From the NCBI GenBank assembly GCA_021784595.1, contig JAJYHT010000055.1:62001-126000 (forward strand): DNA of 64,000 nt, given 5' to 3'. Below the pieces are notes generated by a model. The model ran no database searches and was not told where the DNA came from. It was given only the letters and a program-made list of their open reading frames with translations. Positions within the stretch are counted from its first letter, which is position 1. Every line of letters starts with the position of its first letter. The translations under genes were made by a program, and so were the position numbers. Source of the stretch: Bacillota bacterium. GTDB taxonomy: Bacteria; Bacillota; Sulfobacillia; Sulfobacillales; Sulfobacillaceae. Positions 1-60,332 of this stretch are shown piece by piece.

Positions 1-1
1 G

Positions 2-658
2 GCGCTTTTGCGATGGAACCACCCTCAATTAGGTGCGATTGCCCCGGATCTCTTTATTCCGTGGGCCGAACAAATGGGGGTCATATCTCAACTCACCACA
101 TGGGTTTTGAATGAAGCCATGACGCAATGCCAGGAGTGGGTCCGTGCAGGGCTCGCTCTCTGTGTGGCCGTGAACTTATCGGCCTGGGATTTGAAAGATG
201 CGAATTTGCCGAACCGCCTAGCCAGCGGGTTGCGCCAATACCAACTAGCGCCCGCCAACCTCTCAGTAGAAATTACTGAAAGCGCTATCATGCAAGACCC
301 TGCACAGGCCATGAAAGTCTTGACTCGCTTGGGACAACTGGGTATCAAAGTGTCCATTGATGATTTTGGCACGGGATATTCTTCCTTTGCCTATCTCAGT
401 CAATTACCCGTCCATGAAATTAAGATTGATAAGTCCTTCGTACTCACCATGTTATCCAACCCAACCAATGCCATTATCGTGCGGTCCATTATCGCGTTAG
501 CACATAATTTGTCTCTAGTCGTCGTGGCCGAAGGTGTCGAGACTCAAGAAATATGGGATGCACTGAATTCCTTATCGTGTGACGTGGCTCAAGGGTATCT
601 CATCTCACGGCCGATACTGGCCGATGGCATTCCAGAGTTTATGAGAAGACAACCGTGA
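2..658 (+). CDS. EAL-domain cyclic-di-GMP phosphodiesterase, C-terminal part (cut by window edge)
   Basis: The reading frame is open from the first bases and starts inside an EAL domain: A-L-L-R-W-N-H-P, with the Glu of EAL just outside the window. Family motifs follow in order: VAVNLSA (near residue 55 of the visible part), VEITESA, SIDDFGTGYSSFAYL (metal-binding Asp pair), KIDKSFV, VVAEGVET, and the closing QGY-SRP. All key residues visible here are present, so hydrolysis of cyclic di-GMP to pGpG is likely. Upstream domains (often GGDEF or PAS) lie outside the window. The right window edge carries a PAS-GGDEF start of the same broad class, but the two cannot be parts of one gene. Confidence 0.93.
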   Translation, partial: ALLRWNHPQLGAIAPDLFIPWAEQMGVISQLTTWVLNEAMTQCQEWVRAGLALCVAVNLSAWDLKDANLPNRLASGLRQYQLAPANLSVEITESAIMQDPAQAMKVLTRLGQLGIKVSIDDFGTGYSSFAYLSQLPVHEIKIDKSFVLTMLSNPTNAIIVRSIIALAHNLSLVVVAEGVETQEIWDALNSLSCDVAQGYLISRPILADGIPEFMRRQP

Positions 659-5371: not shown

Positions 5372-6808
5372 ATGAATGGGATAGGATTAAAGGGGGGGAT
5401 GGTCGTGTTTCGGCATCGCACCAATCGATGGGATGAGTTAGCGGTCTTGGTAGATACCGGCGCGGCTTACATCGCCTATATGGTTGCGGTCCATGTATAT
5501 ATGACATGGATTAATCCCCGTGTGGCCACAGTGCAATTGGCCACCTTTTACTATTCTTTTTCGGTTGTCGTTCTTGGCTTGTCGTGGCTCGTGCTGAAAT
5601 TGAATTTTCGCGGATACTCGCGTCGATGGAATCAGTTGCCGGCAGAAATGGGCATTCTACTGTTGTCAAACCTAGAAATCAATTTGGGTTTGGCGATGTT
5701 GATTTTCATCGTCAAGGCGACTTGGTTTTCGCGGCTTATCTTTTTAATTTTGCCGGTAGTGTCGTTGATTCTGCAGACCATGGTGCATGGAACCATAAAA
5801 ATCGGAGTGGGGAAATTTAGGTTATCTGGTCGTGACTTGCGACATGTGGCCGTTATTGGCTATCCCAGGCGCGTGGGAATCTTTTCCGACACGGTGGCTG
5901 CGGTGCCCGAAGCTGGACTTACGGTGGCGGCACGTTGGTCTGTGCCGTTGGGGGACCGGGAGGCCGGCAAAAATGCCATTGAAGGATTATATCAGCTCGT
6001 TCACGACACGGTGGTGGATACCGTGGTGTTAGCGTTGCCGATGGCCGACGATGTCATGATGGAAGCCATTCGTTTAGCCCGCAGCGAGGGAAAGGAAGTA
6101 CGCATGGTGCTCGACGAGGTTGGAGCGTTGGCGCATCGCTCTAGACTCTACGATTTTTATGGCAACTCGGTCTTGGTGGTGGATTCTTCGCGCGCCCATC
6201 AAACATCGCGCAAGCTAGTCAAGCGTGCGGTCGATATTCTCGGCGCCTTACTGGGCATCGTGATTACCTCGCCTGTGATGCTGGCTATCGTGTTAGCGAT
6301 GAAATGGGATGAGCCAAAGGCGCCAATTTTCTTCATTCAGCGACGGGTGGGTCTCAATGGCCGTCAATTTTCTTGCTATAAGTTCCGCACCATGGTGCCT
6401 AATGCGGAAGAGCTAAAGGACCAATATGCGCATTTAAACATTATGTCGGGGCCCGTGTTCAAGATTGAAAATGATCCCCGGGTGACCAAAGTCGGGAAAA
6501 TTTTGCGTAAGGCCAGTTTGGATGAATTGCCCCAGTTGTTTAACGTGCTGCTGGGCCAGATGAGTCTGGTGGGGCCTCGCCCAGCTTTACCTTCCGAGGT
6601 GCGTCAATATGGTGAAGATTACCGGCGTCGGCTTTCCGTGCGACCTGGGATTACTTGTTTATGGCAAATTTCCGGGCGCAACGATATCGATTTTCAAGAA
6701 TGGATGAAGCTTGATATGGAATATATCGAATCATGGTCTTTGCTGTTGGATCTGAAAATTATGGCTAAAACTATCCCGGCCGTGTTGCAGCAGCGCGGTG
6801 CCCATTAA
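5372..6808 (+). CDS. Polyprenyl-phosphate sugar-1-phosphate transferase (WcaJ/CpsE-like priming enzyme)
   Basis: Starts surface-polysaccharide repeat units by moving a hexose-1-phosphate from a UDP-sugar to undecaprenyl phosphate. The 478 residues have four N-terminal membrane segments, a CoA-binding-like middle region ([14 protein letters not shown]) and a C-terminal catalytic domain from about residue 282: [12 protein letters not shown], a membrane hairpin, [48 protein letters not shown] and [14 protein letters not shown]. These are the bacterial sugar-transferase signatures. The ATG at 5372 has only a weak ribosome site. ATG 5399 or GTG 5405 behind a G-run are alternatives. Its stop overlaps the stop of the convergent PilZ gene by a few bases. 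Likely substrate glucose or galactose; not decidable here. Confidence 0.92.
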
Positions 6809-7524
6809 TCATAGCGGTGCCGGTCGCAGAAAGTTTTCCATTGTTGCAGCAGGGGCCCATCCAAGACTGGGTTCCAAAAGCCGACCACATCGTGGCCTTC
6901 CACGCCTTGATAGACAGTAATGTCTGGCAAAGTACGCAAAATCTCGATTTGTCCCTTAAACGAACTGCCATCGGGAAGTTTCCACTCTACAGCAACGCGT
7001 GTTTCCGGTTTTAGGCGGTGACGGGAAAAAAACCGTATGGCTGAATAGGAGATGTTGCGGGTTATAGTGGAAAATTGGCGTGGTTTCTCTTCTTCTGCGT
7101 TGTCTTCGGCCACTATTGTGAACTTTCCGGGGAGTTTGGTATTGCTGCGCCATTCGTGCCGCCGGTTGTGGCGCCTCGGAGGAGCCACATAGGTGACCCG
7201 CAGTGCGGGCAGGGGATCCAGAACATCGTCGATGAGGATCTTATAACGGTAAAGATAGCTGTCTCGTCCCCACAACAACTGAACTTCGGTCCCAACCAGG
7301 GTCCAACCCAGCACCACATCTCCTGCCGACGAGCGCAGGGCATCAAGATAATCGTAGGAGTCGTCGCGCATTACAATGCGCGACGAGTATCGCTCGATTT
7401 CGCTTCCCTCGCCGTTAGTCCAATGCTCAATTTCAATTGCTGCCTTGACGGGCGGCAATTCCGCCATGGGCACTACTCGCTTGGGGTTCTCAGTGTTGCG
7501 CGCCACATTATCCACCCGATCCAT
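6805..7524 (-). CDS. PilZ-domain protein (YcgR-like, cyclic-di-GMP receptor candidate)
   Basis: About 239 residues with an N-terminal beta-rich region and a C-terminal PilZ-like domain. The arginine motif RRHEWR is followed by TRNISYSAIRFF, the position of the D/NxSxxG motif. Here the Gly is Ala and the Asp is Asn, so binding should be tested. The ATG at 7524 was chosen because the longer frame (to 7599) overlaps the upstream gene and lacks a ribosome site; AAGAAG precedes the chosen start weakly. The gene follows the M50-PilZ fusion gene by 41 bases on the same strand and is probably cotranscribed with it. Role inferred: cyclic-di-GMP-dependent control of polysaccharide or motility. Confidence 0.7.
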   Translation of the reverse strand: MDRVDNVARNTENPKRVVPMAELPPVKAAIEIEHWTNGEGSEIERYSSRIVMRDDSYDYLDALRSSAGDVVLGWTLVGTEVQLLWGRDSYLYRYKILIDDVLDPLPALRVTYVAPPRRHNRRHEWRSNTKLPGKFTIVAEDNAEEEKPRQFSTITRNISYSAIRFFSRHRLKPETRVAVEWKLPDGSSFKGQIEILRTLPDITVYQGVEGHDVVGFWNPVLDGPLLQQWKTFCDRHRYD

Positions 7525-7565
7525 GAGGATACTTCTTACTTCGCCACATTCGCGAGATTTCCTGC

Positions 7566-8540
7566 CTAGGTTCGATGCCAAACGGCAACCACTTCCCACC
7601 GGCCATCCTGCAACTGACGTTGCCTTATAAAGTGTGCGCGCCGATTAACGATAATTCCCCATATCCCGAGTCTTACAGTACAAACACACAGAGTGGAAAT
7701 CGGTTCAGCTATCAAGAGACGTGCCGAAAAGAGAGAGAGATCTTGGCTGGTGCAGGGGAGCAGCATCCCACCGTATTCGATAAGCCCTCTCCAAGTTATG
7801 CGATAGCGTGGGTGGCTGCGTTGCTCAAGCCGATAAGGCTGGCCACAATACCGCACCCACACGGCTGGTTCAAAAATGTCGACCCGGATAATTTCGGCTG
7901 CCACTTGCGTGCGCACCTGAGCGCCCACATGTTCCACCCAAGCAGTGCGAGTCAACACCAGTTCGTCAGCGGGCTTTAAAGTAAGACGAACAAATTTCTC
8001 TGAGGAAGTAGATCTGACAATGGGATATGAGTGGGTATCACTGCGCAAAACATCCAGTCGCCAGTTGCGGTTGCGGATGGGGTACACTAGTCGAGCGTCC
8101 GGCATGCCTGGCATCCAGGAGAAAAGCCCGGTAAGCAGGATGACATGCCACATCCAATTCCCCAATGGCCAGACTAGCAAGGGAATTAATGCTCCCGACA
8201 GACCGAGCGCCACTTGTAGAAAACGCGTTAACGGCGCCCAGCCAAAAGAGAGACGCAAACCGACGGGCACCCATGACATCTTCACGGTCATACCCAAAAA
8301 AATCCCTAACACCTTTGGGTGGCGGGCGCCGCCAAAGGTGATCGAATCAATGGGAATTCCCAGCATAGAAGCCACCATGGCATGGGACAATTCATGCAGT
8401 CCCATATAAATTCCGATGAGCCAGACAATCTGAAGCCATATCCACGGGATATTGCGGTAAAAAGGCACCATGGCAACACATAGTGCGACAAGGATGAGGA
8501 TAGCCAACCACTGTTTATGTTGTTTCAGATATCGAGCCAT
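7566..8540 (-). CDS. Membrane metalloprotease (M50/site-2-like HExxH) fused to a PilZ domain
   Basis: The 324-residue protein begins with two hydrophobic segments. The second contains the zinc motif HELSH (His49, Glu50, His53), as in site-2/M50 intramembrane proteases. A later segment carries LFSWMPGMPDARLVYP near residues 140-155, resembling the second M50 motif with its metal-binding Asp. From about residue 240 the protein has a PilZ-type region: QRSHPRYR, then SQDLSLFSARLL, where the usual Gly is Ser-Ala. It therefore joins a membrane protease-like module to a cyclic-di-GMP receptor-like module. Function is not known. The start is ATG with no ribosome site but a TATAAT box five bases upstream, which suggests a leaderless mRNA. 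Confidence 0.78.
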   Translation of the reverse strand: MARYLKQHKQWLAILILVALCVAMVPFYRNIPWIWLQIVWLIGIYMGLHELSHAMVASMLGIPIDSITFGGARHPKVLGIFLGMTVKMSWVPVGLRLSFGWAPLTRFLQVALGLSGALIPLLVWPLGNWMWHVILLTGLFSWMPGMPDARLVYPIRNRNWRLDVLRSDTHSYPIVRSTSSEKFVRLTLKPADELVLTRTAWVEHVGAQVRTQVAAEIIRVDIFEPAVWVRYCGQPYRLEQRSHPRYRITWRGLIEYGGMLLPCTSQDLSLFSARLLIAEPISTLCVCTVRLGIWGIIVNRRAHFIRQRQLQDGRWEVVAVWHRT

Positions 8541-8545
8541 ACTAA

Positions 8546-8573
8546 ATTATACTATAACTGCCATAATTGGGAA
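8546..8573 (-). promoter_or_regulatory. Promoter placing transcription start at the ATG of the M50-PilZ gene
   Basis: On the minus strand TATAAT (8546-8551) is followed by only five bases before the ATG. A weak -35 match (TTCCCA, 8568-8573) lies 16 bases upstream. The spacing predicts an mRNA beginning at or next to the start codon. Confidence 0.5.
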
Positions 8574-8668
8574 ATAACGGATATTTCTCGGCGGGGAGGG
8601 TGGCTCTTAAGAGAGAACATCGATTACAATAGAAGAGGCTGGGTTCGTGAACGAACTTGGGGGGAAGG

Positions 8669-9139
8669 ATGAGGGATTTGTCCCAAAGAATTGAGCTGCT
8701 GCATATGTTAGGGGAGGCACCGGAGGGACCCTGGGCGATATTTTCCCTTCCGGATGGAGACGGATCCGGGATGGTATCGGTGTTGGTTCCGCGTTCCTTA
8801 TGGCTGCGTCTGACCCGGCGAGATCCGTTTTCCAGTGACATTGCGATTATGGAAAGAGTGGGCATCCAGGCCATTGAAAGGCGGCGCAATATAGGACCGT
8901 TGGTGGGTCCAGTGCTGATCGAGCTAGCTGACGTCGACGAGTCTGAAGCTGTCTTGTGGTATACGGCATTAAGGGTATGCCAGCAGTGTGGGAAGATGGT
9001 GCCTCCGGGTGAAGTGTTGGAGGGTCTTGGCAATGCATTGCCACCGAATTCACGGGGAGAAATCGAAATTAAAGTTTTGTGCCCAACATGTCAAATTCAG
9101 ACACCGCATCGGATGACGCCATGGGAACTATTGGACTAA
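8669..9139 (+). CDS. Unrecognised protein with C-terminal double CxxC (zinc-ribbon-like) motif
   Basis: About 156 residues, not assigned to a family. The first two thirds are predicted mixed alpha/beta without membrane segments. The last third has VCQQCGKMVPPGE and, about 40 residues later, VLCPTCQ, a spacing suited to a zinc ribbon or rubredoxin-like knuckle. The codon pattern and acidic, soluble composition look real. ATG 8669 directly follows a purine-rich GGGGGGAAGG run; a TTG twelve bases earlier is possible. It is divergent from the M50-PilZ gene and lies just before the sedolisin gene. Confidence 0.62.
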   Translation: MRDLSQRIELLHMLGEAPEGPWAIFSLPDGDGSGMVSVLVPRSLWLRLTRRDPFSSDIAIMERVGIQAIERRRNIGPLVGPVLIELADVDESEAVLWYTALRVCQQCGKMVPPGEVLEGLGNALPPNSRGEIEIKVLCPTCQIQTPHRMTPWELLD

Positions 9140-9198: not shown

Positions 9199-10752
9199 TT
9201 GGTTAAATTGTCAGGGCATACCTTGCCAGAAAGTTTGCAAAGTGATTTTCTTCCTATGCTGGATCAAAGCCGTTCCGTGACCGTAGCAGTAGTCTTTCAT
9301 CCCTGGAACTTAGGTGCTGCCGAAGCGAGGTCCGAGCCTATGGAGAGAGAAGATTTTCTCCAAGAACATGGAGTGCCGCAGGATGTGTGGCGTCTCTTTC
9401 GTGACTGGGTAACCCGAGAAGGCTTGCTCCTAGAACGTGAAACCGCCTTTGTGTTTTGGCTGCGAGGGGATTTTGAAACCGCGGCCAAAACGTTTGACAT
9501 TGAGTTCTTGGAAAATGGCAATCGGCATGCTCCAGCTAAAGAACCGCTCGTGCCGGATTTCGCGGCTCCTTGGATTGCCGGAATTGTGGGATTGGATAAC
9601 GTGGCCAGCCTTTATCCCAGTGTGCGTTTGGCGCATCACACGGAATTGCTGGCCAATGAAGGACAAGGATTTTTCCCCCAAGACCTGAAAACCGCTTACC
9701 ATTTCCCTCCGGGTTTGACGGGTGCGGGTGTGACCGTAGGAATCCTGGAATTTTCCAATGGGTACAGTCTGCAAGACCTGCAAGGATTTTGGCAGACCTT
9801 TAATATGGCCGCACCTGAAGTGACCTTTGTCTCTGTCGACGGAACGCCTAACGACGGCGGGATTGAGCCTTACGACATGGAAGCGACGCTTGATATTGAA
9901 TGGGCGTCGGCAATGGCTCCCAGAGCCCAGTTTGTCGTCTATGAGGCCTCGGCACAGACCTCGGATCGCTCGTTTGCGGTATCGGTATTGAATGCTTTGG
10001 AATACGCCATGTATGACACCGCCAACCATCCCGACGTGCTGTCGATAAGTTATGGGGTGGCGGAATTTCACTTTGCGCCTGCGGTGCTTAGAGCATGGGA
10101 CAGCATTATCGCTCAAGGTGCTATGGTCGGAGTGACCACGTTGGTAGCGTCTGGAGACCAAGGAGCCTATGGTCGCCGAGGTCCGGGCGGCACCCGCCTG
10201 CATGTCGACGGGCCGGCATCTTGTCCGCACGCGCTTGCGGTGGGGGGCACGCATTTGATTCTTAATCCCGATGGCAGCATCGCTGAAGAAACTGGATGGA
10301 CTGATGTGGACAACAACGGGGCATCAGGCGGCGGCATCAGCCAGGTGTTTGCGCCGCCCAGCTATCAAAGTCATTTAGAACTGCCGGTTAAGCCAGAATA
10401 TCATCTGGGGCGGGGAGTGCCTGACGTGGCATTGAATGCCGACCCAGACACAGGCTACGCCATCTTGTTTCAAGGCTCATTTACCGTGGTTGGGGGTACA
10501 TCGGCAGCTGCTCCGGTATGGGCGGCGGTACTGGCCGTGGTGATTCAAGCACGGCGGGACAAAGGGAGAAGTGCTATTGGATATGCGCATCCCACCTTGT
10601 ACGACATGGGAGGAACCCCCGTGTTCCGCGACATTGTGTCGGGAAATAACAGTTACGGCGGTTTAACGGGCTACTTTTGCACCACGGGCTGGGATGCGGT
10701 AACGGGGTGGGGGACACCGGATGTTACGCGTCTGGCAGGAGAGTGGAGCTAG
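9199..10752 (+). CDS. Sedolisin (kumamolisin-like, S53) serine-carboxyl peptidase
   Basis: Acid-active endopeptidase precursor, 517 residues. An N-terminal prodomain of about 160 residues is followed by the S53 catalytic domain from ITGAGV-type sequence (LTGAGVTVGILEF). Catalytic residues are visible: Glu228 and Asp232 in MEATLDIEWA, oxyanion Asp320 in SGDQGAYG and Ser435 in GGTSAAAPVWA. The C-terminal calcium site is represented by FRDIVSGNNSY and TGWDAVTGWGTP. No hydrophobic signal peptide precedes the prodomain, as in other kumamolisin-type precursors, so the export route is unclear. Start is TTG behind AGGGGGTG. It fits an acidophilic host. The end overlaps the convergent glycosyltransferase gene by 29 bases. 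Confidence 0.93.
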   Translation: MVKLSGHTLPESLQSDFLPMLDQSRSVTVAVVFHPWNLGAAEARSEPMEREDFLQEHGVPQDVWRLFRDWVTREGLLLERETAFVFWLRGDFETAAKTFDIEFLENGNRHAPAKEPLVPDFAAPWIAGIVGLDNVASLYPSVRLAHHTELLANEGQGFFPQDLKTAYHFPPGLTGAGVTVGILEFSNGYSLQDLQGFWQTFNMAAPEVTFVSVDGTPNDGGIEPYDMEATLDIEWASAMAPRAQFVVYEASAQTSDRSFAVSVLNALEYAMYDTANHPDVLSISYGVAEFHFAPAVLRAWDSIIAQGAMVGVTTLVASGDQGAYGRRGPGGTRLHVDGPASCPHALAVGGTHLILNPDGSIAEETGWTDVDNNGASGGGISQVFAPPSYQSHLELPVKPEYHLGRGVPDVALNADPDTGYAILFQGSFTVVGGTSAAAPVWAAVLAVVIQARRDKGRSAIGYAHPTLYDMGGTPVFRDIVSGNNSYGGLTGYFCTTGWDAVTGWGTPDVTRLAGEWS

Positions 10753-22196: not shown

Positions 22197-23345
22197 CTAC
22201 CGGATCATCCGCCCGATACGTTGCGCGGCTTCGATTAATTGCGATTCAGATGCCGTGAGCGAGATGCGCACAAAGCCTTCTCCTCCAGACCCAAATCCTG
22301 TGCCCGGAGCCAACACCACATCGTGGTCGGCTAATGCTCTCTCGGCGAATTGAACGGACGTCTCCTCGGTCGGCACCGGACACCACACGAAAATGCTGCC
22401 TTCCGAGGGAGGAATTTGCCATCCAAATTTATACGCCTCGTCAATGAAGGAGTCCCGTCGAGTTTGGTAATGCTGCACCAAGGCGGTCACGGATTCTTGG
22501 GAACCGGTGAGTGCCTCAATGCCGGCGGCTTGGATGGCGCCAAATTGACTGCAATGCAAATGGTCCTGCAATTGCTCCAGATACTGAATCAGGTCCGCGT
22601 TGCCAGCGGCAAATCCGAGCCGCCAGCCCGCCATGTTGTAGGATTTGGAGAGGGTGGTAAATTCGATTCCCACCTCGATGCCACCAGGACGAGAAAGCAA
22701 ACTTACGGATTTTTTGCCATCAAACGTAATATCTCCATAGGCTAGGTCATGGGCCAGAACCACGCCGTCACGATGGGCTAAACCTATAATTTCATCAAAG
22801 AGAGCAGGTGAAGCCAATCGTCCGGTTGGATTGTTCGGATAATTTAAAAACGCTAGTTTGGCGGTGGGATCCCACGCCTCCAAGTCAGGCATAAAATTCA
22901 AATCGGCAGACAGTGGCCAGGGGACCATTTGGGCTCCAGCCAGGCTGATACCCGACCAGTAATCGGGATATCCGGGATCCGGCACCATGGCCCGGTCGCC
23001 GGGATTTAACAGGGCTAAGGAAATTTCTTGCAATCCAATTTTACTGCCAATCAAGACCGCGACTTGACGCACCGGATCGAGCTTAACACCATAGCGCGAT
23101 TGGTACCAGTTAGCTACCGCGGACTTTAATTCAAAGAGTCCAGTAAAAGAGATGTAGCGATGAAAGGCCGCATCCTCGGCAGCATTCTGCAAGGCGCGCA
23201 CAATATGGGGGGGTGTGCTTTGATCAGGATTGCCTTGCCCCAAGTTGATTACATCATGGCCTGCCCGACGCAATGCTTCAGCCCGTGACACCAATTGGGC
23301 AAAAAACTGGCGGGGCAAGTTTGAAAGACGGTCTGCTGGTTTCAT
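22197..23345 (-). CDS. PLP aminotransferase of the methionine-salvage operon
   Basis: Fold type I aminotransferase, about 382 residues. It has INLGQGNPDQSTPPHIV, HRYISFTGLFELKSAVANWY, the FLNYPNNPTGRLAS block, HDLAYGDITFDG (PLP ring Asp), the Schiff-base Lys in FTTLSKSYNMAGWRLGF and the C-terminal Arg in EGFVRISL. It is the last gene of mtnW-X-B-D, so it most likely transaminates 4-methylthio-2-oxobutyrate to methionine (MtnE/MtnV role). ATG 23345 fits the AAAGG site better than ATG 23351. The substrate is inferred from context. Confidence 0.88.
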   Translation of the reverse strand: MKPADRLSNLPRQFFAQLVSRAEALRRAGHDVINLGQGNPDQSTPPHIVRALQNAAEDAAFHRYISFTGLFELKSAVANWYQSRYGVKLDPVRQVAVLIGSKIGLQEISLALLNPGDRAMVPDPGYPDYWSGISLAGAQMVPWPLSADLNFMPDLEAWDPTAKLAFLNYPNNPTGRLASPALFDEIIGLAHRDGVVLAHDLAYGDITFDGKKSVSLLSRPGGIEVGIEFTTLSKSYNMAGWRLGFAAGNADLIQYLEQLQDHLHCSQFGAIQAAGIEALTGSQESVTALVQHYQTRRDSFIDEAYKFGWQIPPSEGSIFVWCPVPTEETSVQFAERALADHDVVLAPGTGFGSGGEGFVRISLTASESQLIEAAQRIGRMIR

Positions 23346-23357
23346 CGTCATATCCTT

Positions 23358-23888
23358 TCAAGAGACTTGTTGGGAAGCGTCATAAATGGCGACCCATCCT
23401 TCTTTGGTCTGGAACAGCCTTACGGCTTTGACATAACGGCTATTGGTCAACGTGAAGCAATGCCTTGTACCACGCGGTACACTGATTAAATCACCTGGCA
23501 TGACGGTAACAGCAAACCGCTCACCATTGCGGGTAAGAGTAAAAATCCCCTCACCATCGACGATAAAGCGCACTTCGTCTTCACTGTGGTGATGTTCTTT
23601 TTGAAAATTGGTCAAAAGGTCGTCTAGATTAGGCGTGGTATCCGCATGAAGAATGATGATGTCATGGGATATGTATCCAAACTCGTGCGCCAATCGATCC
23701 AATTCGTTTTGAAATTGGCGCAATAGCTCCTCTTTTTCCGAATCGTTCAGGTCTAGTCCGGTACGTAAGCGATCTGGCAAGATCTCAGGGGCCCAATATT
23801 CCCATAGCACTCCATGGTCAGCCAAAAAGTTTTTGATTGCGCCGGGGTCGCGCAGCACCGAGCCTGACTCCCGTGTAATGTATGCCAT
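23358..23888 (-). CDS. mtnD: Acireductone dioxygenase
   Basis: Cupin enzyme of methionine salvage that oxidises acireductone to 4-methylthio-2-oxobutyrate and formate (Fe form). About 176 residues, with the metal ligands in HHHSEDEVRFIVDGEG (two His and Glu) and the last His in VPRGTRHCF. ILHADTTPNLDDLL is family typical. The start was moved to ATG 23888, preceded by AAGGAG, because the longer frame overlaps the upstream mtnB end. It sits between mtnB and the aminotransferase in the SAM-riboswitch operon. Confidence 0.93.
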   Translation of the reverse strand: MAYITRESGSVLRDPGAIKNFLADHGVLWEYWAPEILPDRLRTGLDLNDSEKEELLRQFQNELDRLAHEFGYISHDIIILHADTTPNLDDLLTNFQKEHHHSEDEVRFIVDGEGIFTLTRNGERFAVTVMPGDLISVPRGTRHCFTLTNSRYVKAVRLFQTKEGWVAIYDASQQVS

Positions 23889-23908
23889 CTTTGCATGCTC
23901 CTTCGCGT

Positions 23909-24547
23909 TTAATGGTGGATCTCCCACGCCGCCCGGCGCGGAACAGTCAAATGCGCTAACTGTTGATAGTAAAACCATTCGAATAGATACTCAAATGCTT
24001 CCAAGTGGGTTGTTGCTTGCTCAAGCGTGACGCCAAAAGCGTAGATTCCATGACCCCGGATCAGGATCCCGGGAATGGCCGGGTCCAAGACCCGATAGAC
24101 TTCGTCGGCCAAACGGCCCAAGTCTGCGTAATTAGGCAATACCGGCAGGGCAAGGACGGCATCTTCCTGCCAAAGTCCCAACGCCTTTAACATTTCATTG
24201 CCGTGCAGTATTAACCATTGGGAATCCGCCCATTGCGATACGAGATTATTGTAGACGGTGTGCACATGAAGCACCGCATTGGCTGAAGTTCTTTTGTAGA
24301 TGGCTTGGTGAATTCCCGTTTCGGCCGATGGGCGCCCCTCGCCCCATATGACCCGAGCGGAGGAGACCCCAATAATTTGTGACGCGTCCAATTGTTGTTT
24401 ATCTGATCCGCTGCAGGTAATGGCCAGTGTCAACGGATCGTTGTCAATCTTTACGGACAGGTTGCCAGAAGTGGCGCGCAGCCATCCTCTAGCTCCCAAA
24501 CGGTGGCCACTATCGATTAGAGCCTGTTGGGCTGTTATAAACGTCAC
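23909..24547 (-). CDS. mtnB: Methylthioribulose-1-phosphate dehydratase
   Basis: Class II aldolase/adducin-fold zinc dehydratase of methionine salvage, about 212 residues. It contains RLGARGWLRATSGNLSVK, HQAIYKRTSANAVLHVHTVYNN (zinc His pair), GNEMLKALGL and IRGHGIYAFGVTLEQATTHLEAFEYLFEWF. The GTG at 24547 overlaps the mtnX stop as GTGA and has GGGAGGTG upstream, so the longer frame to 24643 is discarded. The overlap implies translational coupling with mtnX. Confidence 0.93.
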   Translation of the reverse strand: MTFITAQQALIDSGHRLGARGWLRATSGNLSVKIDNDPLTLAITCSGSDKQQLDASQIIGVSSARVIWGEGRPSAETGIHQAIYKRTSANAVLHVHTVYNNLVSQWADSQWLILHGNEMLKALGLWQEDAVLALPVLPNYADLGRLADEVYRVLDPAIPGILIRGHGIYAFGVTLEQATTHLEAFEYLFEWFYYQQLAHLTVPRRAAWEIHH

Positions 24548-25218
24548 CGGGATGACACCTCCCGCAGAATATCTTTGACATGTTGGTCCACTTGATAAAA
24601 ATCTTCGAAAAACCGAAAAGGCTGGCTTTGTTGCTGCAACCATTCGGCCAGTCGGGAGCGCGCAATGACGTAGTCTGCGGCTTCAGCGCCAAGAAAGTCG
24701 GTGACCCCGTCGCCTACAAACACCACCGGGGCCCCAAATTGCCCTCGCAAAGCTTCGATCAGTGACGGTTTACAAAGTCCGCACCCATGTGGATCGTCAG
24801 GGGGGCAGGGGTAAGTCCACTGTACTTCGATAGTGGTCCCGCTCAAGTCTGCGTGATTGGCATAGATGTGATCGGCTGGTACGCGGCCCTCCAACACCAT
24901 ATGGAGAATCATATCCAGCCCATTGCTGGCAATAAACAGAGGTATATTAGCGTTTGCCAAGTTGGCGGCAAACGCGTCAAATCCTGGGCGAGTGCCGCTG
25001 TGGTTGTGAATAAAACGGCGATAGAGCGCTTCTTGCCCAGTGGGCAAGGCGCGAAACAACGCGGCCAAGCCTTCCCCTAGGGAAATCTCTTGGCGATTGA
25101 TGGCATCGACCAGATCTTGATTACCGGGTGCAAACGCGGTGGTTAAAAGCACGACCAGATCTTCTGTGGAGATCGTGCCGTCAAAGTCTGAGACTACCAG
25201 CAGGGGATATTTAAGCAT
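24544..25218 (-). CDS. mtnX: 2-hydroxy-3-keto-5-methylthiopentenyl-1-phosphate phosphatase (HAD)
   Basis: HAD-superfamily phosphatase, 224 residues: motif I in VVSDFDGTIST (nucleophile Asp), the Ser/Asn motif in FIASNGLDMIL, KPSLI, and motif IV in VFVGDGVTDFLGAEAADYV. A four-Cys cap insertion with CGLCK is seen near residues 140-150. In mtnWXBD-type organisms MtnX replaces the bifunctional MtnC. It overlaps mtnW by eight bases and mtnB by four. Confidence 0.92.
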   Translation of the reverse strand: MLKYPLLVVSDFDGTISTEDLVVLLTTAFAPGNQDLVDAINRQEISLGEGLAALFRALPTGQEALYRRFIHNHSGTRPGFDAFAANLANANIPLFIASNGLDMILHMVLEGRVPADHIYANHADLSGTTIEVQWTYPCPPDDPHGCGLCKPSLIEALRGQFGAPVVFVGDGVTDFLGAEAADYVIARSRLAEWLQQQSQPFRFFEDFYQVDQHVKDILREVSSR

Positions 25219-26341
25219 TGCCGTGACAGACCTCCAAAACGGCGTCCATCAGTACGCGAGCCCCAGCCGTAGTCCCGTTAGGGTGACTGTGCACGGCGCT
25301 TCCAGCGTTGATCACGATGTCATAACCAAAATCTTCGATTAGCTGAGAGACCAGTCCCGCATGGATGCCGGCCGAAGGACCGGAGATCACTTCAGGGAAG
25401 CGACCAGGCTCTTGAAGGCGGCGATGGATGGCAAGAGCATCCGGCCGCGCTATAGCCACGCTACCATAGGGGGAGGGGAATAGCACAATGTCGGCTCCCG
25501 CCAGACGCGGCAAAAGACCTAACAAAATGTCAGGAGAGACTCCCCAAGCATGGGGGCCTATGATGCCACCGGAAAAGGCGGGATGGGCGATAAAGGGAAC
25601 GTCAATTTTTTCTCGCCGCAATTCGACTAGGATATCTAGTCCGGTGACAAAGGGTGCTATGAGAAAGCTATCAGCCCCGGCCTCTAATGCGCGTTTGGCG
25701 TTGTCCCGCATCTGTGCGGGAGTGCCGGTAAGATTTGGCGCATATAGCCCTAACTGACCCGTTCGTTGGGCACGTTCAGCCAATATTTGGCGGGTTAGAC
25801 GAATACGCTCCAACAATGGCGCCTGTTCGTCATTGAAGTAAATTTCATCATCCTTCACCCAATCTACGCCGCCGTCAATTTGCTGCTGAAAAGCCTCTTG
25901 AAACTCCTCCAGTGTGGCCCCATTTTCTCTTTTGAAAATTGACATCACAAAAGGACGATGGTGCACGCCAAATTTTGCCCGCAGTCCTGGCACTCCATGG
26001 CTCGGGCCAGGAAACTGCCGAGCATACTCGTCTGGCAATTCCAAGTTGACCAGCCGAATTTGTCCATCTAAAGACAATTTGCCAAAAACTACCGTCAGCA
26101 AGGAAGCCATCGAGGGTTTTAGATTTCTTACAGGATATTTGATGCTAAAACGGCCAACGTCCTGCCTCTCGCAGGAAATATCGCCGACTTCTCCCCGAAA
26201 TTCCAGCAATGACTTTTGCCGCGCGGGATTGATGTCATTCCAAGATCCAATCGTCATCCCGATTGCGATAGAGTGGGCGCGTTCTGCTAAATTTTCAGCC
26301 CAAGGCACTTCGTAAGTAGCGACAACAACTGGATTGTTCAT
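25211..26341 (-). CDS. mtnW: 2,3-diketo-5-methylthiopentyl-1-phosphate enolase (RuBisCO-like protein)
   Basis: Type IV RuBisCO-like enolase of methionine salvage, 376 residues. The active-site region GGVDWVKDDEIYFND contains the activating Lys position and the metal-binding Asp/Glu. FIAHPAFSGG, and the phosphate-binding loops INAGSAVHSHPNGTTAG and IVLFPSPYGSV, are also present. The N-terminal domain is compact, so the protein is somewhat shorter than the Bacillus enzyme. Start ATG has GGAGGG six bases upstream. It is the first gene of the riboswitch-controlled operon. Carbon fixation is not expected, because RLP family members of this type act as enolases. Confidence 0.93.
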   Translation of the reverse strand: MNNPVVVATYEVPWAENLAERAHSIAIGMTIGSWNDINPARQKSLLEFRGEVGDISCERQDVGRFSIKYPVRNLKPSMASLLTVVFGKLSLDGQIRLVNLELPDEYARQFPGPSHGVPGLRAKFGVHHRPFVMSIFKRENGATLEEFQEAFQQQIDGGVDWVKDDEIYFNDEQAPLLERIRLTRQILAERAQRTGQLGLYAPNLTGTPAQMRDNAKRALEAGADSFLIAPFVTGLDILVELRREKIDVPFIAHPAFSGGIIGPHAWGVSPDILLGLLPRLAGADIVLFPSPYGSVAIARPDALAIHRRLQEPGRFPEVISGPSAGIHAGLVSQLIEDFGYDIVINAGSAVHSHPNGTTAGARVLMDAVLEVCHGNA

Positions 26342-50665: not shown

Positions 50666-51145
50666 CACGATCCTCCGTTCCATCTCATGGAGTTTTTAAA
50701 GTATGAAGAGGATCACTCCTCATAGGCACAACAGATCAACACTATGAAAAAATCATGACCCTCTCTGGACCCTAATATCAGTATGGCGGACAAATCGCTG
50801 GTTTGATAGGGCCATACGATCCTGCTCCTCATTAAGGATGGGGGAGGATGGGGACATTTCATATCATAGCCTAAAAATATCGCTAAGAGGTGAAAAAAAA
50901 GAATCCCGAGGCACAAGGGTGTTGAAGCCTAAGGCAGAGAAGTATTGATTTATATTAGTTGTAATAATATAGTAATAAGAAGCTGATTGATGGTATGGTG
51001 TGGTGGACTACAGGATGCACCAGAATCTGTGGATTACCAAACATAGGCGCATCGGGTGCGGATCATGCTCTTTGGTCGAAAGAGGCATAGCCCATGAAGC
51101 ATAATAAGCAGCAAGCTGATTCGGACATTGGCACCTCCGGACGAT
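50666..51145. other. Divergent intergenic region upstream of the GGDEF gene
   Basis: About 480 AT-richer bases. No cyclic-di-GMP riboswitch consensus could be matched. A TATAAT-like run (TTGTAATAATATAG, around 50960-50975) may be a promoter. No gene or repeat was recognised. Confidence 0.4.
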
Positions 51146-51880
51146 ATGTCGAGCGCACTGTCCCGTGCTGAATGGGTCACACTGCTGGGCACAGGCATCG
51201 CTTTGGTAGTGTATTTGGGTTTGTCTCAATGGCTGGGACAACTCGCTCTGGCAGCTCATTTTGTACATAACACACATGCCGTTGTCGTGTTCAACAGCGC
51301 GCAAGGAGCCGCTACCCTGGGACTGGTGGTTTCGATTTACCTATTGCAGCATAGGTTCTTGGTGCGCCCCTTGCGTTGGGCCGCACAGCACGATGCGTTG
51401 ACCGGACTGCTGAATCAGGGAACCTTCTGGGAGACCGTTCGTCAGTTGAAGTTGCCGCGAGCAGACTCCGTCACCGTGATGGTGGCAGATGTTGATCACT
51501 TTAAGACAATCAACGATACCTGGGGTCACCTGGTAGGCGATCAAGTTTTGGCTCACATAGGGGGAACACTACGTCAAAACATTCGGGCAGGAGATATTGC
51601 GGGGCGGATTGGAGGCGAAGAGTTTGGGGCTATTTGGATTGGGGTTCCAGAACCCACCATCAGGGCAATTGCTGAACGATGGCGTATGAGCGTCGAAAAC
51701 TTGCCATTTGCTGATCCGGGCCTTGCGGCTACCATTTCGATAGGCATAGCAAGCAACACGTCAAGCAGTCTGCCTCAGTTGCTCGATGTTGTTCGCCAGG
51801 CAGATCGCGCGTTGTATGAGGCTAAGGCTAGCGGACGAAACAGAATTGTAACAAAGGCTTTAGGCAGAGAATCCGGATGA
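51146..51880 (+). CDS. Membrane-bound GGDEF diguanylate cyclase
   Basis: About 244 residues. Two N-terminal membrane spans (LLGTGIALVVYLGLSQWL and AATLGLVVSIYLLQHRFLV) lead to a GGDEF domain: DALTGLLNQGTFWETV, MVADVDHFKTINDTWGHLVGDQVL, active site GGEEF, and ISIGIA. An I-site RxxD (RAGD) lies five residues before GGEEF, so product inhibition is expected. It should make cyclic di-GMP at the membrane. Neither TTG 51128 nor ATG 51146 has a good ribosome site; the ATG is preferred. It converges with the CBS-PAS-HD gene. Confidence 0.92.
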   Translation: MSSALSRAEWVTLLGTGIALVVYLGLSQWLGQLALAAHFVHNTHAVVVFNSAQGAATLGLVVSIYLLQHRFLVRPLRWAAQHDALTGLLNQGTFWETVRQLKLPRADSVTVMVADVDHFKTINDTWGHLVGDQVLAHIGGTLRQNIRAGDIAGRIGGEEFGAIWIGVPEPTIRAIAERWRMSVENLPFADPGLAATISIGIASNTSSSLPQLLDVVRQADRALYEAKASGRNRIVTKALGRESG

Positions 51881-51922
51881 ACCAGTACCAGGTTGGAGCG
51901 ACCGGACGTACTTAACAGTTTT

Positions 51923-53365
51923 CTACTTTTGATCGTATCCTATGCGATTTTGGTTAGACAGATCCCGTTCTTCCCCGGTATAGATCGATAGGGTATAGTG
52001 TCGATGGTATCGGGCGTCTATATTCGTTTCTTGGATCTCAAGCGTGCTGCCGTACAACCGTAAGGGCGCAATGGTCGCCTGTCGCCGTGTCATTCCAGCC
52101 GAAAGTCCGTCGACCAGTTGAAACAACCGCAACATGGGCAGCAATGCCTTGGGGAACGATGGCGGCAGCTGCCCCTCCGCCGTGTGGTGGTAACGCACGA
52201 GCCACTCAACATCCGGGGCAACGTGATAATCCTTGCTGGCCCAGTCGGCACTGCGAGCAGCATGAAGATATCCGGGCTCAAACGTGTCTTTAGGGACAAA
52301 TGTCTCCCCTAACGCCAAATGGGGCTGAGCTTTTCCTATATCATGAAAAATGAAGGCCTGGACCATCGTATCTTTATCGATTCCCACCAGTTGAAAGACA
52401 CCGAGAACCTTCAATTCGCCCATAATGCGCAACCCGTTTATGACATGCCAATAGGTGCCGTCGGACAACACTCCAGTCACCGTTGCTGTTCCGGTTTTCG
52501 GATCATAGATGTCCTGGTATTCGGGCGATGTTTTAAGCTTCGTCTCGACCTTACTGTTGGGCAAAGTGAGGCCAAAAGCCACTTCCAGTTCGCGATTCTG
52601 GTGGTTGACCAGGTCTTGCGCTGTATGGAGGGGCGATACGTCCATAAAAGTGATCAATATGGCCATGAGCCGTTCCTCTTCGCGTACCGAGCCAAATTTA
52701 AACAATATGGTACGGCCATTGCCGATGCGCAGTTCGCGCTCCCCCTGCGTCGCGTGTCCAGACAACACTAGGGGTACCGCACTCCCCTCTAAATAGTCTC
52801 GCATGTGTGGGAATAGATATTGCGCCAGTTCTTCATACGGGCGGTTCACCACAGCGGCGGGGTTGATTCCCAAAATATCTGCTCCGGCTGGATTCAATAA
52901 TCTGGTGATGCCTTGGCCATCCACCACGATTAGTCCTGAATACATAGCTCCAAGAATATGATGCTGGAGACGCTCGATTGCGAGATCTGCACTGTCGTAC
53001 TGCTCTTTTGGCATGCCCGATACGATTAACTCGCATGGAATAATACCGAGAAGTTTTCCGTTTTCTACCACTGGCACCGATGACCAGTCGGAGTGGTCGC
53101 GAAATACCGGGATTAACGTATCTACCTCGTCCTCTGGTGCGATTGTGGCAATATGACTCACGGGCAACATAATATCGGATAATTTGGGACCCCCACCGCC
53201 GTGGGGAACCTGCTCCAATCTTACGACTCCTACCAACTGGTTTTCTCCTTGCACCACATAGAGCGTTCGATGAGGGCTGGTGGCTACCAGCCAGCGCATC
53301 ATGGCCGCGGAATCGGTGGGCTGCCCAGTCAAATAATCAGTATCCATCACAAATCGGGATTTCAT
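51923..53365 (-). CDS. CBS-PAS-HD domain signalling protein
   Basis: 480 residues. A CBS pair lies within about residues 1-120 (RTLYVVQGENQLVGVVRLEQ; WSSVPVVENGKLLGIIPCEL). A PAS domain occupies about residues 130-245 (AMYSGLIVVDGQGITRLLNPAGADILG). An HD domain follows, with HDIGKAQPH and downstream YHHTAEGQLP. HD-GYP hallmarks are not complete, so cyclic-di-GMP hydrolysis is not assured. The HD part looks like a metal-dependent phosphohydrolase that could act on a nucleotide. ATG 53365 is preceded by GGAGGC. Combination of adenosine-nucleotide sensor, PAS sensor and phosphohydrolase inferred. Confidence 0.82.
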   Translation of the reverse strand: MKSRFVMDTDYLTGQPTDSAAMMRWLVATSPHRTLYVVQGENQLVGVVRLEQVPHGGGGPKLSDIMLPVSHIATIAPEDEVDTLIPVFRDHSDWSSVPVVENGKLLGIIPCELIVSGMPKEQYDSADLAIERLQHHILGAMYSGLIVVDGQGITRLLNPAGADILGINPAAVVNRPYEELAQYLFPHMRDYLEGSAVPLVLSGHATQGERELRIGNGRTILFKFGSVREEERLMAILITFMDVSPLHTAQDLVNHQNRELEVAFGLTLPNSKVETKLKTSPEYQDIYDPKTGTATVTGVLSDGTYWHVINGLRIMGELKVLGVFQLVGIDKDTMVQAFIFHDIGKAQPHLALGETFVPKDTFEPGYLHAARSADWASKDYHVAPDVEWLVRYHHTAEGQLPPSFPKALLPMLRLFQLVDGLSAGMTRRQATIAPLRLYGSTLEIQETNIDARYHRHYTLSIYTGEERDLSNQNRIGYDQK

Positions 53366-56817: not shown

Positions 56818-57618
56818 TCAAGGTTTCTTTTTAGACCGCGGTCTGATGGGCTTGCGCGTGGCGTCCTCTGCGGTGGCTGTTTCATTGTCTTCTTCCAAGT
56901 CAATCCCAAACATTGCCGAGATATCATCGCTATCCATCACACGGTCGCTTTTGTGGCTTGATTTTTTAAGCAGTGTCTCTGATTTCTGTGTGATAGTCTT
57001 TGATATCAGGTCATCAATGTTGACATTTCGCAAGACAAAAAACAGCGCGGGATTTTCGTCCAAACGCGTTCCCACTCCATACAATGCGGCAGCTACATGC
57101 TTACACATCGAAGCCCAGTCGGGGCAACTGCATTGAAGGGCAATTTCCTTGGGCATGGGGAAAAGTCCCGTACCTTGTGCGGTAAACAAGTCTGATAAGG
57201 ATTTGGGGAACTGTCCATTAAGTAGTTCTTGCAAGGATTCGATGGCACCCTCGCAGGATCTCTTGGTTTTCTCCCAGGTGTTGTTGCTTAACGGCTGAAT
57301 GGTGATTTGAATGCGATAGGGTTTGTCCTCGCTGCCTTGCACAAGCGCTGATACTGTGCCCGGGGCAATCTGCAAATCCAGTACGGCCCCGTGGCGGACA
57401 TAACTCTTTCCACGCCCGATGCGGTAGGCATAATCGGAATATCTTTCCAAATTGTCATTCCATGCCTTGCCCCACCAGGTGTTGGTCAGTTTTCGGCCTA
57501 TTACGACGACAGGAGCTATATCCGGGTTCCTCTTTCGGAGATTTGCCAGGCTTCGTTCGGCGCGTGCCCGTTTTTCCGCGACGGATACATATTTGGGGAA
57601 ACCATACTCGTATGGCAT
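56818..57618 (-). CDS. SWIM zinc-finger protein partnered with SNF2 helicase
   Basis: About 266 residues. The SWIM motif LQCSCPDWASMCKHVAAALYG (CxCx-n-CxH) lies near residue 165. Before it are NTWWGKAWNDNLERYSDYAYRIGRGKSYVRHGAVLDL and PYRIQITIQPLS, typical of the bacterial SWIM proteins encoded beside Snf2 enzymes. The last 60 residues are acidic then Lys/Arg-rich. ATG 57618 was chosen for its GAGGT site. It lies 20 bases after the SNF2 gene on the same strand; the two probably form a DNA- or nucleoprotein-remodelling pair. Confidence 0.87.
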   Translation of the reverse strand: MPYEYGFPKYVSVAEKRARAERSLANLRKRNPDIAPVVVIGRKLTNTWWGKAWNDNLERYSDYAYRIGRGKSYVRHGAVLDLQIAPGTVSALVQGSEDKPYRIQITIQPLSNNTWEKTKRSCEGAIESLQELLNGQFPKSLSDLFTAQGTGLFPMPKEIALQCSCPDWASMCKHVAAALYGVGTRLDENPALFFVLRNVNIDDLISKTITQKSETLLKKSSHKSDRVMDSDDISAMFGIDLEEDNETATAEDATRKPIRPRSKKKP

Positions 57619-57638
57619 CGGGTTCAACCTCGCATTTG

Positions 57639-60332
57639 TTATAAGGACAATCGAAACAAGTCCATCAATTGATGATTGTCCATTTCAGTCAGCCAGTTTT
57701 CCTGAACGCTCGGAATGATTTCTTGCGCCAATTTAGTTTTTTCTTCTATCAGGCGATCAATTTTCTCTTCAATTGTACCGCGCGTGAGAAACTTATGGAC
57801 AATAACATTTTTGTTTTGTCCAATGCGAAAAGCGCGATCGGTGGCTTGATTTTCTACCGCTGGATTCCACCAGCGATCAAAGTGCACTACATGATTGGCC
57901 GACGTTAAGTTCAACCCCACGCCGCCTGCCTTAATGGATAGCACAATGAATGGGATGTATTGGGTACCTTGGAACTTTGCCACAATCTCTTGCCTTTTGG
58001 ATACCGGGGTTTGTCCGTGCAACACGAGCCCGGGATGATGAAATACACTCTCCAGAAATTCTTGCAGCGGTGCGGTGATTTCTTTGAATTGGGTAAAAAC
58101 CAACATGCGTTCCCTTTTGGCATAAATGGTCTCGCAAATCTCGCCCAGTCTGTCAAATTTTCCGCTTTCACTGGGGTCGTAGATCTCTTGCCCCAAATAT
58201 TGGTCGGGATGATTGCAGATTTGTTTGAACTTCATCAAGGATGATAAAATCAGTCCCTTTCTTTGAATTCCGTCTTCGCTTGATTCCAGTTTGGCTTTCA
58301 GTTCATGGACTAAGGCGGTGTAAAGCGCCACCTGCTTTTTTGACAGGGTGGCAAAAGTCTTCATTTCGATTTTGTCAGGCAAATCCCTAATTACCGCTTT
58401 ATCCGTCTTTAGTCTACGTAATATAAAGGGACTCACTACGCGCTTTAAAGGAGCATAGCCAGCGGGGTCATCGCGCAATTGTTTGGTGAAGTCGGTAAAC
58501 TCACGGGCATTCCCCAACAATCCTTGGTTGAGGAAGTCAAACAAAGACCACAGGTCCGAAAGACGATTTTCAACCGGGGTGCCGGTCATGGCAATTTTGT
58601 ACGATGCCCTGATTTGTTTCACTGCTTTTGCCTGTTTGGTCACCGGGTTCTTAATGGCCTGGGCTTCATCTAGTACCAACGTGTCCCAAACCACCTCTGT
58701 CAGCCATGGGTATTTCGACATCATTGCGTAGGTGGTCAGGAATATATCATAGTGCGGAACGGTTTTGATGCCATCTTTTAAACCAGAGTTTGTTTGCGAA
58801 GGGTGTAAAACCAGGCATCTCAAAGAGGGGGCAAATTTCTTTATTTCACTCAACCAATTGCCGATCAGCGACGCGGGGATTACCAACAGGGTTTTTTCAT
58901 CCCGTTGTCCACGGATATAATTCAGAAGAGCAATGACCTGCAGTGTTTTTCCAAGACCCATGTCATCGGCCAGGCAGGCTCCGAGACCCAGGGTTTTCAT
59001 GAAATAGAGCCACGCCAAGCCTTTTTCCTGGTATTCCCTCAGCTCGGCATGAAAATCCGAGCCGCCGGAAATGGCTGTAATTTCATCAGGGTGCGTCAAC
59101 CGTGCGACTACCGTGTTGAGCCATTCTCCGTGGGTTATGCTCAGGTCGCAGGCCTCTTGGGGTAGATTGATCATTTTGGACGCATTCCATTGAAAACGCA
59201 TGGCGTCTATAATGTTCATATCCGTATTACCCATCATTTTTTGTGCCTGCTCATAAGCCTTTAAGGTATCCTCCAGCTTTTTGTGGTCTACCTCAACCCA
59301 TTTTCCCTTGAGGAAGGCCAGTCCCTCTGCTTCGCGGAGCAGTTGCCTCAATTCCTCAACGTCGAGGGGTTCTCCGCCTAGAGATATTTGGGCATTGAAA
59401 TCGACCAGGGCATCAAAACCCAGATGGGATGGAGGTTTGTTGCCAATGCTGATAGACATTCGCAAAGCATTGCTCGAACTCTTCCACCATTTGGGGATGC
59501 GGCACAAAATGCCCGCTCTTTCATATAGCGGCACTTCTTTAAGAAATGTGTAGGCTTCCCCAGCCGATAACCGCAAAGGGTGAAAAATTTCTCCAGACTC
59601 CACGAGGCCCGCGATAAAAGGGCTCTCTTCGGAAGCCTTATTCACTGTCGCCAAAAGATCCAACAACTTTTTGTGGTCTTGGTGGTATTCGACCAGTGCA
59701 TTTTTCAGGGGAAGGTGCTTTGCTTTGCCATCTTTGGTTAAGCCTGCTGAGTAGGTGGCTAAAAACGCAAAAGGGTATTCATTTTGTTTGCTCTCAACCA
59801 GATGGAAGAAAATTCGGCCTATGGGATGGACAACTGCATTGCGCGAAGCAAAGAAATCTGCTGCAGATCCACTGAAAGCCGCGATTTCTCCAGCAAAAAC
59901 ATCGTTCAGTCTGTCCCAGATGCGCAGCAGCCAATCAAAATTCAGATGCTCCGCGCCCTGCATGTAGGGTGCGCTGTGCAAAACACGGGTTATTTCCTCG
60001 ACTTCTGGCTCAACCACGGTCCGCTCCCGAAGCAACTCGATATCCGGAGTGCGGGCCAGCGCCTTTAAAAACGCGGCAGCAATCAAATAGAGAAAGCGGA
60101 CCGATTCGGAGAGCGTCTCGGATGGCTCGGAGAATCCCAGATGAAAGAGCGTTGGGTAGGGGTCGTGCTGAAACTGCGCGTACATTTCGTTTTGAAGCGA
60201 CAGCAACCTAGGGTTGGGGGAGCCGCCGGTTTGTTGCCAGTCCAGCACAAATCCTTCTGGCTCTATCCACACAATGAGTTCGCTATTCATCTTAACAGCC
60301 TGGGCGTCATGGATATCGGTCGACACGTCCAA
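57639..60332 (-). CDS. SNF2-family DNA-dependent ATPase (Rad54/HepA-like, SWIM-associated)
   Basis: 897 residues. A large N-terminal region (about 1-440) with a DUF3670/SNF2-associated segment precedes the helicase core: ELREYQEKGLAWLYFMKTLGLGACLADDMGLGKTLQVIALL (motif I), VIPASLIGNW (Ia), VLDEAQAIKN (II), MTGTPVENRLSDLWSLFDF (III), VFTQFKEI (IV), VLSIKAGGVGLNLTSANHVVHFDRWWNPAVENQATDRAFRIGQ (V-VI). All ATPase motifs are complete. It should translocate on DNA and displace proteins. Start TTG 60332 has AAAGGA upstream; a GTG two codons on is possible. First gene of the two-gene unit with the SWIM protein. Confidence 0.94.
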   Translation of the reverse strand: MDVSTDIHDAQAVKMNSELIVWIEPEGFVLDWQQTGGSPNPRLLSLQNEMYAQFQHDPYPTLFHLGFSEPSETLSESVRFLYLIAAAFLKALARTPDIELLRERTVVEPEVEEITRVLHSAPYMQGAEHLNFDWLLRIWDRLNDVFAGEIAAFSGSAADFFASRNAVVHPIGRIFFHLVESKQNEYPFAFLATYSAGLTKDGKAKHLPLKNALVEYHQDHKKLLDLLATVNKASEESPFIAGLVESGEIFHPLRLSAGEAYTFLKEVPLYERAGILCRIPKWWKSSSNALRMSISIGNKPPSHLGFDALVDFNAQISLGGEPLDVEELRQLLREAEGLAFLKGKWVEVDHKKLEDTLKAYEQAQKMMGNTDMNIIDAMRFQWNASKMINLPQEACDLSITHGEWLNTVVARLTHPDEITAISGGSDFHAELREYQEKGLAWLYFMKTLGLGACLADDMGLGKTLQVIALLNYIRGQRDEKTLLVIPASLIGNWLSEIKKFAPSLRCLVLHPSQTNSGLKDGIKTVPHYDIFLTTYAMMSKYPWLTEVVWDTLVLDEAQAIKNPVTKQAKAVKQIRASYKIAMTGTPVENRLSDLWSLFDFLNQGLLGNAREFTDFTKQLRDDPAGYAPLKRVVSPFILRRLKTDKAVIRDLPDKIEMKTFATLSKKQVALYTALVHELKAKLESSEDGIQRKGLILSSLMKFKQICNHPDQYLGQEIYDPSESGKFDRLGEICETIYAKRERMLVFTQFKEITAPLQEFLESVFHHPGLVLHGQTPVSKRQEIVAKFQGTQYIPFIVLSIKAGGVGLNLTSANHVVHFDRWWNPAVENQATDRAFRIGQNKNVIVHKFLTRGTIEEKIDRLIEEKTKLAQEIIPSVQENWLTEMDNHQLMDLFRLSL

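Follow-up and report, generated by a model that had tools for sequence, protein, structure and literature searches.

A predicted site-2-type membrane protease carrying a YcgR-like PilZ module in acid-mine relatives of Sulfobacillus

In silico analysis of a 64,000-nucleotide stretch of DNA (contig JAJYHT010000055.1; hereafter the window) from an acid-mine Sulfobacillus relative revealed a gene in which an M50-type membrane module is continued, within a single chain, by a YcgR-N-like barrel and a PilZ barrel. On the basis of the fusion itself, the folds of its parts, the conservation of ligand and motif residues, and a conserved locus, we cautiously favor the view that the encoded protein is a site-2-type intramembrane zinc metalloprotease with a cytosolic YcgR-type receptor, and that c-di-GMP would set its activity or the access of its substrate. 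The bolder version of this proposal, a single-chain c-di-GMP-gated intramembrane protease through which these acidophilic relatives of Sulfobacillus would place regulated intramembrane proteolysis, with envelope or polysaccharide components as probable targets, under direct control of the messenger, has in our estimation slightly less than an even chance of being correct. While the component families are known, the combination of M50 and PilZ is new; in the open-access literature, we found no protein in which PilZ is fused to an M50, intramembrane, or site-2 protease. Known outputs of c-di-GMP comprise transcription, motility, synthases, secretion and, indirectly, proteases. If the proposal is true, membrane proteolysis would be coupled directly to the switch between sessile and motile life by a receptor that is part of a site-2 protease, and this ligand-controlled enzyme would allow gating by a C-terminal domain to be probed with a small, soluble molecule.

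The original prediction, which gave no strand, had placed a HELSH module and a C-terminal PilZ domain within one 324-residue chain, and the open frame indeed runs exactly from 7566 to 8540, on the minus strand, with an ATG start. The same fusion occurs in other genomes as well: four more intact, full-length copies are present in two genera of the same family (local identities of 47% in G001, 43% in G004, 32% in G006, and 31% in G015), and the five intact orthologues align end to end. The sequence TATAAT (8546 to 8551, minus strand) ends five bases before the ATG and may, as read from the sequence, be a leaderless promoter; a Shine-Dalgarno sequence is not visible, and the transcript is a candidate leaderless mRNA.

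Profile searches barely detect the fusion protein of the window. Its Pfam M50 score (16.1 bits) lies below the curated cut-off of 27.2, which is a detection threshold rather than a biological feature; no PilZ domain was recognised in it by Pfam, and a search of NCBIfam with the window protein found no family. Motif and fold are therefore the grounds for assigning it to M50, at most as a divergent member, and the case as a whole rests on relatives and structure. In the orthologues, Pfam M50 is found in all five (best E-value of 1.6e-5) and Pfam PilZ in two of the five (best E-value of 2e-6), while hhalign matches residues 10-73 of the fusion to CBS-type M50 proteins at 96%. The weak scores of the window protein might be taken to suggest that an annotation or assembly error has fused two genes, an explanation whose probability we consider negligible; since five genomes agree on an identical, continuous fusion, we rejected it. 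The join of M50 and PilZ is thus confirmed as real, and it is conserved in two related genera.

The membrane module (residues 1-155; 8076 to 8540, minus strand) is supported by the Pfam and hhalign matches, by its hydropathy, and by a fold match to RseP. Hydropathy and the structure model place TM1 at about residues 10-28, TM2 at 34-59, TM3 at 106-122, and TM4 at 130-142, with a beta-rich, hairpin-containing region (64-99) between the second and third of these approximately four helices. The HExxH motif, HELSH (residues 49-53; 8382 to 8396, minus strand), lies within TM2 and is invariant in all five intact copies, as are its putative metal-binding and catalytic residues His49, Glu50, and His53. 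A further metal ligand had been left by the original prediction as the point on which the membrane domain hinged, and Asp148 (8097 to 8099, minus strand), which is likewise invariant across the five copies, is the candidate third ligand. It stands in the context WxPxMPDARL (PDARL in the window protein) or, in the sister genus, WxPSxADGxL (ADGRL or ADGQL), and is equivalent to the Asp of LDGG; compared with PxxxxDG of typical M50 proteins, the motif lacks one residue, and the usual Asn of the NxxPxxxxDG-like pattern is replaced by Ser. The distance from His49 to Asp148 amounts to 99 residues, and that from H43 to D137 in SpoIVFB to 94 (PMC11486902). The N-terminus of the fusion is basic (Lys/Arg) and is followed by four helices, so that the C-terminus, too, is expected to lie in the cytosol, where c-di-GMP is.

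RseP (7w6y) matches residues 29-149 of the model over 120 residues (VIA-align; Z 8.2, 4.1 Å). The size of such a match can reflect a common arrangement of helical parts, and the model has a pLDDT of only about 50-65 in this region; we nevertheless count the match because the sequence motifs agree with it. Modelling the M50 module alone from a deeper alignment of poor quality yielded a poorer model than the full-length one. We regard the PilZ fold as firmly supported and the M50 fold as no more than moderately so. Three other M50 proteins are encoded in the host genome, one RseP/RasP-like (L052), one SpoIVFB-like (L053), and one more, and the fused protein is therefore not the housekeeping site-2 protease of this bacterium.

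The AlphaFold model, built from the five-member alignment, has a mean pLDDT of 68.7; confidence is good in the C-terminal half alone, with values mostly of 75-88. There, residues 241-324 (7569 to 7820, minus strand) form the six-stranded PilZ barrel that the original prediction had called for; it superimposes on the PilZ domain of BcsA at 1.7 Å over 76 residues (VIA-align; Z 11.6) and, more generally, at 1.7-2.1 Å on c-di-GMP-binding PilZ structures. The best Foldseek matches are c-di-GMP-bound VCA0042 (E-values down to 1.9e-6), MotI, MrkH, and YcgR. The PilZ barrel is preceded by a YcgR-N-like barrel (residues 158-240; 7821 to 8069, minus strand) whose modelled strands reach a pLDDT of 74-88 and which matches YcgR-N (5y6h) with a moderate score (Z 7.3, 3.3 Å over 83 residues). 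The earlier picture of an M50 module joined to PilZ therefore stands, although it had missed this middle domain as well as the orthologues and their narrow distribution. Within the PilZ half, Arg241, Arg245, Asp267, Ser269, and Arg274 are invariant in the five intact copies; they include the RxxxR c-di-GMP motif (R241 and R245; 7806 to 7820, minus strand) and the first two residues of the DxSxxG motif (D267, S269, and S272; 7725 to 7742, minus strand). The final Gly of the latter is Ser in three of the five copies, those of the window's genus with the window protein among them, and Gly in the two from the sister genus (column 272 reads SSSGG).

In YcgR-type proteins, binding of c-di-GMP alters the relative orientation of the two barrels, and the order of a YcgR-N-like barrel and a PilZ barrel with RxxxR and DxSxx motifs is what the fusion shares with YcgR, MotI (DgrA), and VCA0042. 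These, however, are soluble, stand-alone proteins, whereas here the module is attached to a putative membrane protease and, in the window's genus, has Ser for the motif Gly. The membrane half has its nearest sequence relatives outside the family in CBS-type M50 proteins such as SpoIVFB and mjS2P, with which it has in common a predicted M50 core, an HExxH motif followed at almost the same spacing by a distant Asp, and a putative ligand-binding regulatory domain that succeeds the last helix in the cytosol. It differs from them in carrying YcgR-N and PilZ in place of the C-terminal, nucleotide-binding CBS module and in having two helices fewer than their six, and its host possesses a separate SpoIVFB-like protein. 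Most likely, the fusion is a counterpart of SpoIVFB in which the CBS domain has been swapped for a YcgR module. In structure, the membrane part is matched best by RseP/RasP, with which it shares a predicted M50 core, the four-helix size, and a beta reentrant region; the fusion lacks a PDZ domain, RseP lacks a PilZ-like part, and again a separate RseP/RasP-like protein is present in the host.

From these likenesses, a working mechanism can be proposed. TM1 to TM4 would constitute a minimal M50 core in which His49, His53, and Asp148 hold the metal, presumably zinc, and Glu50 serves as the catalytic base. The chain would leave TM4 on the cytosolic side, near the active site, and pass through a linker into the YcgR-N barrel and then the PilZ barrel. 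Where the two barrels meet, R241/R245 and D267/S269 would bind c-di-GMP, and the barrels might thereby be reoriented as in YcgR and VCA0042; this movement could shift the linker beside the active-site cleft, so that the cleft would open or close to a membrane-bound substrate. The substrate is probably a part or a regulator of the envelope or polysaccharide machinery, as the locus suggests. In SpoIVFB, the substrate is contacted by the linker that joins the C-terminal CBS domain to the membrane core, and how the CBS domain gates the protease is unsettled (PMC11486902); a C-terminal regulatory module with a substrate-contacting linker thus has a precedent, which supports the gated-protease reading. 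Among systems in which c-di-GMP decides whether a protease cuts, LapD-LapG and PopA/ClpXP differ from the arrangement proposed here, since control is exerted by a separate protein and the protease is neither intramembrane nor equipped with a c-di-GMP domain.

The conservation pattern bears on how the two halves may work together. Eight of the nine motif residues chosen a priori are invariant across the five orthologues (hypergeometric P = 4e-6), the exception being the Gly of DxSxxG; because this holds at an identity of 30-43% to the window protein, the conservation of the motifs is not due to chance. The PilZ motif residues are enriched among the invariant columns (P = 2e-4). Both halves are constrained, the protease half more so: the window protein and its orthologues are 41-59% identical in the M50 half versus 20-28% in the PilZ half, which diverges much faster, and dN/dS between the close species G001 and G004 is about 0.16 and 0.27, respectively, the former value indicating purifying selection on the M50 half. 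For the same species pair, the neighbouring genes for a sedolisin-like protein and a 160-amino-acid protein give about 0.05-0.08, and constraint on the fusion is thus, in this one pair, some three- to fivefold weaker. In the congener G003, the fusion has decayed (L006/L013:100-760), with several frame breaks and loss of HELSH, beside intact neighbours. Weaker constraint than in the neighbours and the loss in G003 together indicate that the fusion gene is accessory and dispensable. The gated-protease reading is favored by the five intact fusions in two genera, the invariance of HExxH and Asp148, the purifying selection on the M50 half, the enrichment of PilZ motif residues, the close superposition on c-di-GMP-binding PilZ structures, the expected cytosolic C-terminus, and the 17 GGDEF matches of the genome. 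Against it stand the Ser in place of the motif Gly in the window's genus, the fast divergence of the PilZ half, the decay in G003, the weaker constraint, the low pLDDT of the M50 part, the shortened Asp motif, and the lack of a sigma/anti-sigma pair or other obvious substrate among the scanned neighbours.

The rapid divergence of the PilZ half and the loss of its motif Gly in the window's genus would fit an active M50 protease whose YcgR-PilZ part acts mainly as an adaptor for localisation or substrate binding, with little or no gating by c-di-GMP in this species; it might, for example, direct the protease towards its YcgR-like neighbour or the machinery for polysaccharides. The CBS domain of SpoIVFB aids substrate localisation and is not essential for processing (PMC11486902), which is in line with such a role. 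The RxxxR, Asp, and Ser residues are nevertheless invariant in all five copies, and an adaptor surface would not need them; we consider this explanation unlikely, though it is the rival to be taken most seriously. The opposite division of labor, a membrane-anchored c-di-GMP receptor in which the M50 part now only anchors the protein or offers a platform for protein binding while PilZ delivers the output, e.g., on polysaccharide synthesis, draws on the polysaccharide locus and on BcsA and Alg44, known membrane-bound PilZ proteins that control polysaccharides. The fusion resembles the latter two in having a membrane-embedded partner under a cytosolic PilZ domain in the context of polysaccharide production, but in them this partner is a synthase or co-polymerase, not a protease. 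An anchor would need neither four invariant catalytic residues nor a better-conserved M50 half, and we judge this possibility to be rather improbable. Finally, the YcgR module comes immediately behind TM4 and the Asp proposed to bind the metal, an arrangement that could suit a protease that cuts its own or its partner's membrane tether and thereby frees the YcgR-like part as a soluble cytosolic effector. However, little sequence separates the module from the last catalytic residue, no cleavage signal was recognised, and we know of no M50 protease established as self-processing to release an effector; self-processing thus appears very improbable. The original interpretation is thus partly supported: the fusion, the PilZ barrel, and the full set of metal ligands hold up, and the further step to direct gating of proteolysis by c-di-GMP is an inference.

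The fusion is narrowly distributed and sometimes lost. It is present in two of the 11 sampled genera of the family, the window's genus (g1) and a sister genus (g3). Outside these, neither the 154 class genomes nor the 398 from across the phylum yielded it; the other matches there are to the M50 part alone or the PilZ part alone. A search of the genome contigs with a single sequence gave no matches; its alignment-based repeat did. M50-like matches from other phyla were set aside as ordinary M50-CBS-type proteins without PilZ (their CBS C-termini were read by eye). No plasmid match was found. Stand-alone YcgR-like proteins in other genera of the family are similar to the PilZ half, and on the simplest reading of these sequences the fusion arose once in this lineage, was retained in most members of the two genera, and was lost in at least one. 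Two of the carriers are placed as Sulfobacillus benefaciens AMDSBA4 (G004), reported to be abundant in acid-mine biofilms at a late growth stage (PMC4378227), and a Sulfobacillus sp. (G015).

Consistent with the original prediction, the fusion lies beside a second PilZ/YcgR-like gene (6805 to 7599, minus strand), just downstream, and a convergent bacterial sugar transferase gene (PF02397; 5372 to 6808, plus strand). The order DUF3048, sugar transferase, YcgR-like gene, fusion, 160-amino-acid gene, and sedolisin-like protease is the same in G004 and is matched in G015, which belongs to the other genus, with beta-helix and formamidase-like genes inserted; orthologues of the second YcgR-like gene, 66-71% identical, adjoin the fusion in both. 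The loci of the window and G015 continue with genes for a glycosyltransferase, a UDP-glucose dehydrogenase, an epimerase, and an M61 protease. Neither a sigma/anti-sigma pair nor another obvious substrate was found among the neighbours scanned. In other genera, the second YcgR-like gene lies at other loci, where no M50 gene adjoins it. Its apparent 34-base overlap with the fusion gene is likely not real, because it probably starts at an ATG at 7524 or nearby; its orthologues start further in. The encoded protein carries RxxxR and NxSxxA, no Pfam or NCBIfam family was recognised in it, and its profile matches 28 of 34 family genomes, some of these matches being weak and to other YcgR-like proteins. 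The 160-amino-acid, Cys-containing protein (8657 to 9139, plus strand), to which no Pfam family was assigned, and the sedolisin-like serine protease (9199 to 10752, plus strand) are encoded as a fixed pair adjoining the fusion in all copies examined. The beta-helix gene of G015 (L012:8838-10247), between its fusion and YcgR-like genes, appears by eye to encode a secreted right-handed beta-helix-like protein.

The genome has 17 GGDEF matches, and the c-di-GMP genes expected in the window were recovered: an EAL domain at its start (1 to 658, plus strand), a GGDEF domain (51128 to 51880), and a PAS-type protein whose GGDEF domain lies just at and past its end. The EAL domain probably terminates a larger GGDEF-EAL protein, with GGDEF at 61399-61860 of the contig (C81) in a 720-codon frame, and the GGDEF protein at 51128 to 53365 is convergent with a CBS-PAS-HD protein, a possible pair for making and breaking c-di-GMP. 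A further YcgR-like protein is encoded ahead of FliK-like and FlgD/FlgE-like genes in the genome. The window also contains a methionine-salvage-like cluster (22197 to 26341, minus strand) with a RuBisCO-like protein, an ARD dioxygenase, a class II aldolase, and a HAD phosphatase, and a gene for a SWIM zinc-finger protein adjoining one for an SNF2-type helicase (56818 to 60332, minus strand).
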